Below, one piece after another: positions 6,896 through 10,156 of a DNA stretch of 64,000 nucleotides (within the stretch, counting starts at the first letter, position 1; every line of letters begins with the position of its first letter). The notes beneath the pieces are model-generated. The model did not search any database and had not been told where the DNA came from. It saw nothing but the letters and a program-made list of their open reading frames with translations. Location of the stretch: NCBI GenBank assembly GCA_017883615.1, contig JADGNF010000014.1:1-64000 (forward strand). Reading direction: 5' to 3'. This DNA is from Candidatus Bathyarchaeota archaeon (lineage in GTDB: Archaea > Thermoproteota > Bathyarchaeia > Bathyarchaeales > Bathycorpusculaceae). The position numbers were made by a program, and so were the translations under genes.

Positions 6896-8137
6896 GTGAG
6901 CGTGGTTTGTGTGGTTGAAAACGTAAAAGAGCTCCTTAAACTTCATGAAGGCATCAAACACGAAGTTTACTTAGACAACGAAAACAGTACCATGGTGCCT
7001 CAAGAAGTCATTGACGCCATGATACCCTATTACAACAAAAAAGCCTACGGAAACCCCACATTGACTCACAAACCCGGCTGGGAAGCCTTCACCGCGATTA
7101 TGGAGTCCAGCAAGAAAATCGCGGATTCCATCGGTGCTAAAAACCTCGAAGAAATCAACTTCACTCCAGGCGAATCAGAGGCAAACAACCTCGCCCTCAT
7201 GGGAGCAACCGCCGCAAACGCCACAAAAGGCAAGAAGATAGTCATCAGCGAAATAGAACCCATCAACATCCTCAATGTAACCGACCTCATGAAGAAACAG
7301 GGCTACACGACCACCAAAGTTCCAGTAAATAGAGAAGAAGGCCTGCTGGACTTGGAGAAGCTAAAAGAAGCCGTCGACAAAGAAACCGCATTGGTCAGCA
7401 TCCATTTGGTGAATAACGAAATCGGCACCATCCAGCCCATCAAAGAAGCCATAGACATCGTGAAGGACCGCAACCCCAAAGCCTTATTCCACACCGACGC
7501 TTCCGACGCTTATGGTAGAATCCCCTTCAACGTCCAAGACCTCAAAGTCGATATGGCAACGCTTAGCAGTTTCAAAATTTTGGGTCCACGCGGTTCAGGT
7601 GCACTTTACATCCGAGAAGGAACTAACGTGGAACGCATAATTGAAGGACCCATCGGAACCCAAAAACTATGGCCAGGAATAGAAAACACCCCGCTAATCA
7701 TCGGGTTCACGAAAGCGTCAGAGCTCGCTTTCAACAGTTTTGACGCAAATGTCGCCCGAATGCGTAGAATGCGAGACAAACTCGTAAATGGCATTTTGCA
7801 GACGATGACCGATATCGTGTATAACGGAACAAAAGGTGACAAACGCAGCCCCGACAATGCCAACATCAGCTTCCGACGATGCGAAGGCGAAGCACTCACG
7901 ATTGAGCTAAGCCTCAAAGGCGTTTACGTATCCAGCGGCAGCGCCTGCTCAAGACGCTTGTTGCAGCCAAGCCACGTGCTCGTTGCCATTGGCAGGCACT
8001 TCAGCGAAGCTCACGGAAGCATCCTCATGAAAGTCACCCGCTACCACACAGAAGAAGATATTAACTATGTCTTGGATTCGATTCCTAGCTCAGTTGAGCG
8101 CATCAGAGGCATAGTTGGATCAACAGGAGTTGACTAA
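6896..8137 (+). CDS. divergent IscS/NifS-like PLP enzyme
   Basis: 413 residues, class V aminotransferase fold, clearly related to group I cysteine desulfurases. The mobile-loop motif SSGSACSRRLLQPSHVL keeps the persulfide Cys and the Lys of SSFKILGPRG aligns with the PLP lysine. Compared with E. coli IscS, however, the PLP-stacking His of TEHKAVL is Pro (IEPINIL), the Gln of DATQ is Asp (DASD), the His before the PLP Lys is Phe, the HERG-RSGT segment is not recognisable, and the Arg of SIRFSLG is Leu (SILMKV). It is first in an operon with an IscU-type scaffold (2 bp gap) and SufS. It may be a specialised or regulatory desulfurase paralogue. GTG 6902 and 6911 are alternative starts. Confidence 0.8.
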   Translation: MSVVCVVENVKELLKLHEGIKHEVYLDNENSTMVPQEVIDAMIPYYNKKAYGNPTLTHKPGWEAFTAIMESSKKIADSIGAKNLEEINFTPGESEANNLALMGATAANATKGKKIVISEIEPINILNVTDLMKKQGYTTTKVPVNREEGLLDLEKLKEAVDKETALVSIHLVNNEIGTIQPIKEAIDIVKDRNPKALFHTDASDAYGRIPFNVQDLKVDMATLSSFKILGPRGSGALYIREGTNVERIIEGPIGTQKLWPGIENTPLIIGFTKASELAFNSFDANVARMRRMRDKLVNGILQTMTDIVYNGTKGDKRSPDNANISFRRCEGEALTIELSLKGVYVSSGSACSRRLLQPSHVLVAIGRHFSEAHGSILMKVTRYHTEEDINYVLDSIPSSVERIRGIVGSTGVD

Positions 8138-8139
8138 AC

Positions 8140-8646
8140 TTGTCACGTATACCTTTACCCTACAACCCAAAAGTTTTAGACCTATTTCAACACCCTAAAA
8201 ATCTTGGCAAGATGGAGGACGCAACCGTAGTTGCCGTTGCAGGCAACCCTGCATGCGGAGACATGGTTACTTTCTACTTGAAAATCACAGATCAAGATGT
8301 CATTGAGAAAGCAAGTTTCGAAAGCTACGGATGTGCCGCTAACATAGCCACCAGCAGTATAGTCACAGAAATGGTCAAAGGCTTAACGCTCAAATCTGCG
8401 TGGGAAGATATAACCTGGAAGAAAGTCACCGAGGAAGTAGGCGGGTTACCAAGCATAAAATTCCACTGCGGAGTCCTTGCAGTAGGCGCTTTGAAACGGG
8501 CAATCAGGGTCTACTTCGAAAAGAAAGGTGCAGCCCCAGATTGGGTGCCAAAAGACCACACGTTTGAGGAGAAGCAGGCGCTAGAAGAAGAAGAACTTGC
8601 AAAGATGCTCAGCAAGAGGCTCAAGACAGAGGAAGAGAAAAAGTAA
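8140..8646 (+). CDS. iscU: IscU/NifU-like iron-sulfur scaffold protein
   Basis: 168 residues. The N-terminal 120 match the U-type scaffold, with the three cluster ligands in their usual settings: NPACGD (about Cys39), GCAANIA (about Cys65) and FHCGVLA (about Cys107). The last 40 residues are a charged Glu/Lys helix (EEKQALEEEELAKML) not found in bacterial IscU. The start is TTG, 2 bp after the IscS-like stop, with a Shine-Dalgarno-like GGAG inside the upstream gene. It would assemble [2Fe-2S] or [4Fe-4S] clusters from sulfur handed over by one of the two flanking desulfurases. Confidence 0.92.
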   Translation: MSRIPLPYNPKVLDLFQHPKNLGKMEDATVVAVAGNPACGDMVTFYLKITDQDVIEKASFESYGCAANIATSSIVTEMVKGLTLKSAWEDITWKKVTEEVGGLPSIKFHCGVLAVGALKRAIRVYFEKKGAAPDWVPKDHTFEEKQALEEEELAKMLSKRLKTEEEKK

Positions 8647-8648
8647 CG

Positions 8649-9887
8649 ATGTTTATCGCCCAAGCCATTCGCGATGACTTTCCAATCTTCAAACGGAAAG
8701 TAAACGGCTACCCGCTCATCTACTTTGACAACGCTGCCACCACTCAAAAGCCTCGTCAAGTAATCGATGCGGAACAGGATTTCTACGAGAACCACAACGC
8801 CAACGTTCATCGCGCCGTCCACACGTTGAGTCAAGAAGCCACGGAACTCCACGAAGGTGCCCGCGAAACTATCGGCAAATTTATCGGTGCCAAGGAACCT
8901 GCCGAGGTCGTTTTTGTTAGGGGAACTACAGAAGCCATTAACCTTGTCGCGTACTCTTGGGGACTGCGAAATCTCAAGGCTGGCGATGAAGTACTGATTT
9001 CTCTTATGGAGCATCACAGTAACATAGTCCCTTGGGAAATAATCTCCAGACTGACAGGATTCACGATTAAATACGCAAATGTCAACTCCGACGGCACGTT
9101 AGACTACAAAGATTTCGAAGGAAAATTCACCAAAAACACGAAACTTGCCTGTCTGAGCCAAGTTAGCAACGTCAGCGGCGTAATCAACGATGTTAAACGT
9201 GTAGCCAAAGTCGCCCACGAACACGGTGCACTTATGCTCGTGGACGGTGCTCAATCTGTTCCCCATATGTCGATTGATGTCAGAGATCTGGACGCTGATT
9301 TCCTCGCGTTTTCGGGCCACAAGATGTTGGGACCTACAGGTATAGGCGTCCTTTACGGCAAAAAGGCTCTCCTCGAAAAGATGGCTCCATTTGAAGGGGG
9401 TGGCGAAATGATCAAAGAAGTTTCCTACAGTCCACAAAGCGAGGGATGCGGAATAAGCTGGAACGCCCCGCCGTGGAAGTTTGAAGCAGGAACCCCCAAC
9501 ATAGCTGGAGGTGTAGGGTTAGCGGCAGCGATAAAATACTTGCAGCGGTTGGGTATGGCGGACGTTTTCCAGCATGAAAAAGAACTGACCGAGTACGCAG
9601 TGAAGAAACTTCAGAACTGTTGCACCAAACTGGCGCTTTACGGGACCACAAATCCAGCTTTGAAGTGCGGTATTATCCCGTTTGGGGTCGAAGGTTTATC
9701 CTCACACGATGTGGCGCTGTTTCTGGACAACTATGGCATCATGGTACGAAGCGGATTCCACTGCGCTCAACCGCTTCATCAAATCTTCAAACTACAATCC
9801 TCCGCTCGCGCAAGTTTCTATATCTACAATACCAAAGAAGAAATTGACCGCTTCATCGAAGTCCTCAAAGAAATGGAGCAGTTTTAA
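8649..9887 (+). CDS. sufS: cysteine desulfurase, SufS type
   Basis: 412 residues with all group II landmarks: YFDNAATTQKP near the N-terminus, the cofactor segment MEHHSN, VDGAQSVPH, the PLP lysine in FSGHKMLGPTG, and the catalytic Cys in RSGFHCAQPL with the substrate Arg in ASARASFYIYNT. It converts cysteine to alanine and an enzyme-bound persulfide. It lies 2 bp after iscU and overlaps the next small gene by one base. SufS normally works with SufB/C/D, none of which is in this window. Confidence 0.95.
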   Translation: MFIAQAIRDDFPIFKRKVNGYPLIYFDNAATTQKPRQVIDAEQDFYENHNANVHRAVHTLSQEATELHEGARETIGKFIGAKEPAEVVFVRGTTEAINLVAYSWGLRNLKAGDEVLISLMEHHSNIVPWEIISRLTGFTIKYANVNSDGTLDYKDFEGKFTKNTKLACLSQVSNVSGVINDVKRVAKVAHEHGALMLVDGAQSVPHMSIDVRDLDADFLAFSGHKMLGPTGIGVLYGKKALLEKMAPFEGGGEMIKEVSYSPQSEGCGISWNAPPWKFEAGTPNIAGGVGLAAAIKYLQRLGMADVFQHEKELTEYAVKKLQNCCTKLALYGTTNPALKCGIIPFGVEGLSSHDVALFLDNYGIMVRSGFHCAQPLHQIFKLQSSARASFYIYNTKEEIDRFIEVLKEMEQF

Positions 9888-10156
9888 TGTCAACAGTCCA
9901 AGATTACGTGGCAAGAATCGAAGGAACATGCGGCGCAGAAAACGACATCATAGTCACCTTCAAGTACGAAAAAAAACAGGAAGCGCTCGATCACATCCTC
10001 AAAAAAGCCGCCCTCAAAAACAACCTCTCAGGCATAATTTTCGAGTTGGCGTTTGAGGGTATGTCGTTTCGTGTTTACAGTAGCGGTAAAGCTATTTTTC
10101 GTGGAATAAAAAACCGGGCAGAACTTGACCGGATTCTGGCTGCGCTCCTGCTTTAA
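9887..10156 (+). CDS. small protein of unknown function at the end of the iron-sulfur operon
   Basis: 89 residues, start ATG overlapping the SufS stop and preceded by GGAG. The alternating beta/alpha pattern and the segment FRVYSSGKAIFRGIKN followed by a helix resemble half of a TBP-like repeat (SGK-x-hydrophobic), but this is only a by-eye likeness. It is not convincingly Pcc1, which occurs elsewhere in the window. Co-translation with the desulfurase suggests a role in cluster assembly or its control. No cysteine pair for metal binding is present. Confidence 0.65.
   Translation: MSTVQDYVARIEGTCGAENDIIVTFKYEKKQEALDHILKKAALKNNLSGIIFELAFEGMSFRVYSSGKAIFRGIKNRAELDRILAALLL

Follow-up and report, generated by a model that had tools for sequence, protein, structure and literature searches.

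In IscS and NifS, the cysteine carboxylate is bound by Arg354 (residue numbers are those of E. coli IscS unless stated otherwise), and PLP is held by His104, Gln183, His205 and Thr243. In E. coli, sulfur runs from IscS to TusA; SufS hands sulfur to SufU. Simpler arrangements have been described as well. The minimal IscS-IscU system (MIS) is an IscS-IscU module without other Isc proteins and includes a working cysteine desulfurase (PMC12192291). IscS of A. fulgidus (Asp199; PDB 4eb5, 4hvk), in contrast, is reported to be devoid of desulfurase activity and to contribute a ligand to the cluster, and sulfide serves as sulfur source in some anaerobic archaea (PMC7585200). Furthermore, dsrE-tusA sulfur-trafficking clusters are known, with genes for a heterodisulfide-reductase-like complex on their flanks (PMC4175335).

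The protein examined here belongs to an archaeal family that we name W-type IscS*. Its gene lies in a stretch of 64,000 nucleotides (the window) from contig JADGNF010000014.1 of a Candidatus Bathyarchaeota archaeon. As the initial annotation had stated, it forms an operon with IscU and a canonical SufS, which follow directly, and the order IscS*-IscU-SufS-orf89, almost gapless in the window, is a cassette conserved in the window's relatives. The genes are:

6896..8137, + strand: W-type IscS* open reading frame, 413 aa, GTG start, Aminotran_5 E=5e-59
8140..8646, + strand: IscU-like scaffold, TTG start, PF01592 E=2e-37
8649..9887, + strand: canonical SufS cysteine desulfurase, TIGR01979 572 bits (cut-off 475)
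9887..10156, + strand: orf89, small protein conserved in the cassette, Cys15 invariant

Since orthologues of IscS* begin near the GTG codon at position 6911, this codon may be a likelier true start than 6896. The nearest NCBIfam models of the protein are those of NifS and IscS, but it scores far below every IscS/NifS cut-off (371 bits for NifS model TIGR03402 with a cut-off of 531, and 296 bits for TIGR02006 with a cut-off of 643). Its AlphaFold2 model (pLDDT 91.9) has the IscS fold; nearest among solved folds are A. fulgidus IscS (4hvk/4eb5) and human NFS1, and canonical IscS/NifS/NFS1 folds reach a TM of 0.85-0.88 with the window protein as query. The E. coli TusA-IscS complex (PDB 3lvj) is also among the fold matches. 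A pseudogene or an assembly error is ruled out by the long conservation of the gene across many genomes: more than 70 of them carry it, with identities of 49-89%, nearly always as an open frame with only a few matches reported to carry one internal stop codon, and thus the residue pattern described below is neither chance nor an assembly artefact.

Concerning the partners, the window IscU keeps the ligand set Cys/Asp/Cys/His-Cys as well as the N-terminal Tyr in the alignment, and the cluster ligands are intact in the aligned IscU proteins of W-type loci. The second Cys of the window IscU sits in a GCAAN variant, and a charged, conserved C-terminal tail is common to IscU of the W-type family. 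The iscU gene adjoins the W-type gene at nearly all loci with a flank read, the exceptions being contig ends and one further locus (L041). SufS of the window is identical to E. coli SufS at 11/11 checked catalytic positions, as are 23/25 of the SufS proteins compared, the other two having Ser for Thr95. For orf89, a confident model (pLDDT 91.5) gave insignificant best PDB matches (E about 0.1), with a weak likeness to half of TBP; homology to TusA was unsupported (hhalign probability 0.2).

Alignment to E. coli IscS, in which Lys227 and Cys351 of the window protein correspond to Lys206 and Cys328, gives the changes H104P, Q183D, H205F, R240W, T243I, R354L and S356K, while K206, D180, N155, S203 and the SSGSAC loop with C328 are kept. 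Hence, the four replacements named in the initial annotation (His to Pro, Gln to Asp, His to Phe and Arg to Leu) were confirmed, together with the retention of the SSGSACS loop and the PLP lysine. The HERG-RSGT segment, which had been called missing, is fully rewritten to GTQKLWPGI with no alignment gap. Along the gene, the relevant sites are:

7259..7261, + strand: Pro122 in place of the PLP-stacking His104; Pro in 48/50 close relatives
7496..7507, + strand: Asp201-Ala-Ser-Asp204; PLP-pyridine Asp180 kept, Gln183 changed to Asp
7565..7576, + strand: SSFK; Ser203 and PLP Lys206 kept, His205 changed to Phe
7658..7681, + strand: TQKLWPGI for ERGMRSGT (E. coli 236-243), a substitution and no deletion
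7931..7951, + strand: persulfide loop SSGSACS with Cys351 (Cys328); Cys in all tabulated W-type sequences
8024..8032, + strand: Leu377-Met-Lys379; carboxylate Arg354 changed to Leu, Ser356 to Lys

Conservation was tabulated in two samples, 50 close relatives and 41 family-wide W-type sequences. Invariant in all 41 of the latter are E10, N11, D180, S203, K206, W240, P241 and C328, of which E10 and N11 represent fixed changes near the N-terminus (S10E and A11N) that had previously been overlooked, like the change at position 356 (Lys in 38/41, Arg in 3/41). Position 354 is Leu in 40/41 sequences and Met in the remaining one, and D183 is found in 39/41 as well as in 50/50 close relatives, where T, Q, W and P of the rewritten GTQKLWPGI segment are fixed, too. 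The His-to-Pro and His-to-Phe exchanges listed in the initial annotation are lineage-specific: His104 is kept in 34/41 family-wide sequences, His104 and His205 are each kept in 33-34/41, and their replacement by Pro and by Tyr/Phe, respectively, is restricted mainly to the window's subclade (position 205 is Tyr in most of it and Phe in the window). Because the two histidines are lost mainly there, the family-wide trait is the loss of carboxylate binding. Judged by its aligned residues, the W-type family would thus be defined by lost binding of the cysteine carboxylate with PLP Lys and persulfide Cys kept, and the loss of the His104/His205 contacts would be a later step within the window's subclade. 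Two Heimdallarchaeota contigs (L095/L096) carry Arg in place of PLP Lys206. The pocket is under stronger conservation than the remainder of the protein, with a mean entropy of 0.54 at 20 pocket positions versus 1.13 for the whole protein; this speaks for a defined function and not for decay. Cys329 of the window protein was considered as a relay cysteine and rejected as a general one, since it is nearly fixed in close relatives but present in only 25/41 family-wide sequences.

In comparison with canonical IscS/NifS/NFS1, the W-type proteins share the fold, PLP Lys, Asp180, the SSGSAC loop and the IscU partner, but are without Arg354 and Gln183, and the window protein additionally without Thr243. 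The statement that this is not an ordinary desulfurase is hence supported by the residues, Arg354 being lost in 41/41 sequences and Gln183 being lost as well.

Scanning named genomes revealed members of the family in Bathyarchaeota, Geocrenenecus, Terraquivivens, Aigarchaeota, Methanomethyliaceae and Heimdallarchaeota. When 121 related genomes were searched, most of those in the window's family proved to carry the gene, with identities of 64-89%. For the phylum, 240 genomes were sampled with a profile and about 65 had the gene, with a clean gap between W-type proteins (at least 575 bits) and other IscS (at most 453 bits). In a tree built without active-site columns, the W-type family is monophyletic and archaeal (support 100/100), so that the separate archaeal clade with shared changes beside iscU, which the initial annotation had named as a test of a new function, does exist. 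Two loci (L209 and L210) carry a further IscS type with His104Asn, Asn155Asp and Arg240Lys, in which Arg354 and PLP Lys are kept and whose genes adjoin SufS; L209 is sister of the W group in the tree (support 93/85). In the open-access literature searched, no description of the W-type family was found, and prior notice is possible in the 2022 paper defining MIS.

The A. fulgidus-type proteins, here called Asp-type, form the closest parallel. Like the W-type, A. fulgidus IscS and M. acetivorans IscS1 have an IscU-linked fold, and many relatives of the window genome encode an Asp-type IscS beside its own iscU. The two types have in common that Cys328 is kept and that Gln183 and the cysteine-binding Arg354 are lost (Gln183 changed to Ala and Arg354 variable in the Asp-type). 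They differ in the remaining pocket: the Asp-type has Asp for PLP Lys206 and keeps His104, Arg240 and Thr243, whereas in the W-type the PLP Lys is kept, but Arg240 and Thr243 are replaced, as is His104 within the window's subclade. The AU test, run with active-site columns removed, rejected a common origin of the two types (p-AU 0.001). For the canonical group, retention of Gln183 and Arg354 is no independent evidence, as these residues were partly used in defining it. TusA or DsrE genes lie nearby in the Asp-type loci read, and operons with TusA and/or DsrE were seen at L052-L057, L059, L061, L063-L066, L070, L221-L224 and L229. The association of Asp-type IscS-IscU with TusA/DsrE seems to hold generally across archaea and bacteria, and no report of it was found in the open-access literature searched.

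Genes for sulfur donors or carriers, taken as SufS, TusA, TusA-like proteins and DsrE, were counted within 4 kb on each side of IscS loci. Counted per family in the phylum, such a gene was present in 19/22 W-type, 5/5 Asp-type and 1/8 canonical families (Fisher p = 0.0004 and 0.005), whereby the canonical controls in the phylum are few and mostly without iscU linkage, and detection could be less sensitive in the canonical group because the neighbour profiles were built from W-type and Asp-type loci. A first survey, counted per locus and thus ignoring kinship, had given at least one of SufS, TusA, TusA-like, DsrE or orf89 at 72/78 W-type loci (64/78 with a donor or carrier other than orf89) and TusA and/or DsrE at 31/31 Asp-type loci, compared to no donor, carrier or orf89 at 13 loci of canonical IscU-linked IscS, all of them bacterial. 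Pfam confirmed the identity of TusA and DsrE on representative neighbour proteins, and an extra scan of genomes near L103 agrees, with one canonical gene sharing its locus with an Asp-type operon. In three W-type families (f6, f19 and f32) no donor or carrier gene was found within 4 kb; two of the three have orf89, and SufS is encoded elsewhere in the genomes of all three. Several of the loci surveyed stem from incomplete assemblies, and a gene missing from a genome carries no more weight than its assembly allows.

At several loci (L087, L185, L192-L194, L196, L197 and L204) iscU is adjoined by a small TusA-like protein gene with a GCTxxP motif, usually between iscU and sufS; the Pfam TusA cut-off is not reached by this protein. 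In family f21, the TusA-like protein is likely TusA by sequence comparison, an assignment made uncertain by its sub-threshold Pfam match (E = 0.003; hhalign E = 0.0024, probability 12). At L094, L185, L206 and L207, a PALP-family (cysteine synthase-like) gene is located between sufS and the IscS* operon, a position which suggests that cysteine supply is linked to this operon. Deeper W-type members resemble the known dsrE-tusA clusters in their adjoining DsrE and TusA genes, the flank being IscS*-IscU in place of the heterodisulfide-reductase-like genes.

With SufS next to an IscU-type or carrier partner, the window also resembles the SufS-SufU and SufS-SufE systems, but differs from them in that its IscU falls below the cut-off of the SufU model (NCBIfam) and no SufB or SufE match was obtained in its 95% complete genome. 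No TusA match was obtained there either, and matches to SufB, SufE and TusA are equally absent from the near-complete relatives G012, G014, G027, G073, G075 and G205 (the TusA and SufE searches covered 20 genomes). Among enzymes of the IscS/SufS kind, SufS is the sole full cysteine desulfurase that was found in the window genome, with IscU as the main scaffold candidate. Given the missing SufB, SufE and TusA matches, IscS*-IscU-SufS is probably the main Fe-S machinery of this organism. A SufS match was obtained in 48/51 W-type genomes; the other three (G086, G092 and G286) have TusA/DsrE2 beside IscS*, and hence SufS cannot be the sole donor. Compared to MIS, with which the W-type shares the bare IscS-IscU module, the desulfurase role in W-type loci appears to fall to SufS or another donor.

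On balance, we lean towards the view that W-type IscS is impaired as a desulfurase and works for IscU with sulfur that SufS or TusA/DsrE provide. Cysteine would no longer be bound as substrate by IscS*, with the persulfide loop and the IscU partner retained. In the window and its relatives, sulfur would be set free by the adjacent canonical SufS, and in deeper lineages it would be released by DsrE2/TusA. It could then reach Cys351 of IscS* directly or via TusA, the TusA-like protein or possibly orf89, and IscS* would deliver it to IscU or help to hold the nascent cluster there; Cys351 may act as sulfur carrier, cluster ligand or both. Because another sulfur supplier usually stands alongside IscS*, sulfur is probably passed on by this protein and not made by it. 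Compared with the E. coli pair, flow would be reversed, from TusA to IscS*, although the gene neighbourhood is compatible with either direction. The relay fed by SufS that the initial annotation had envisaged gains support, in that donor or carrier genes accompany the family and the Asp-type alike, but not with SufS as the only source; for a selenium source, no evidence was found. Against a relay, it can be argued that SufS could hand sulfur straight to IscU, that families f6, f19 and f32 have no donor or carrier gene nearby, that the signs of retained PLP discussed below are at odds with simple decay, and that the strictly conserved E10, N11, W240, P241 and K356 fit a new ligand better than decay. 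This last point is the starting point of an alternative which we regard as unlikely but worth keeping in mind, namely a PLP enzyme with changed substrate, which forms the Lys206-PLP aldimine and uses a sulfur donor other than free L-cysteine at a new site composed of K356, D183, E10 and W240. The fixation of these new residues, the low pocket entropy, the presence of Lys206, Asp180 and Ser203 in 41/41 sequences and the retention of His104/His205 outside the window's subclade are in its favour, and PLP binding may well persist in most W-type members, deeper ones included, as Lys206 and Asp180 are nearly invariant and the deeper members keep both histidines. Nevertheless, the adjoining SufS or TusA/DsrE would then be redundant, the window's subclade has lost His104 and His205 in addition, the Heimdallarchaeota members are without the PLP Lys, and no candidate substrate is indicated.

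A lower probability still is given to a purely structural role, in which IscS* contributes a Cys ligand to the IscU cluster without transferring sulfur, and IscU takes up sulfide or receives sulfur directly from SufS. The Asp-type offers a precedent, as such a function was proposed for A. fulgidus IscS, and both the use of sulfide in some anaerobic archaea (PMC7585200) and the retained Cys loop and iscU linkage would agree with it. A ligand role, however, needs no strict conservation of new pocket residues, and the carrier or donor gene regularly found nearby suggests protein-bound sulfur. Finally, PLP Lys, persulfide Cys and the IscS fold would also be expected if the protein were an ordinary cysteine desulfurase in which local compensation offsets the changes; with the carboxylate Arg and further cofactor and substrate positions changed and fixed, and a full canonical SufS in the same operon, we consider this highly improbable.

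Beyond the single locus, these comparisons show that the cysteine site of IscS was lost at least twice independently, each time with a sulfur carrier or donor nearby. Chances are about even that this amounts to a third kind of IscS-IscU system, with IscS as sulfur acceptor and interchangeable donors, either SufS drawing on cysteine or DsrE/TusA drawing on inorganic sulfur, which serves as main Fe-S machinery of many Bathyarchaeia and is widespread in related archaea; included in the same even estimate is the generalisation that an IscS without cysteine binding can be recognised by its adjoining carrier or donor gene. The W-type family offers a testable answer to how IscU is loaded with sulfur in archaea without a working IscS or SufB, and with the family recognised, automated annotation of many archaeal genomes would no longer list W-type proteins among the cysteine desulfurases.
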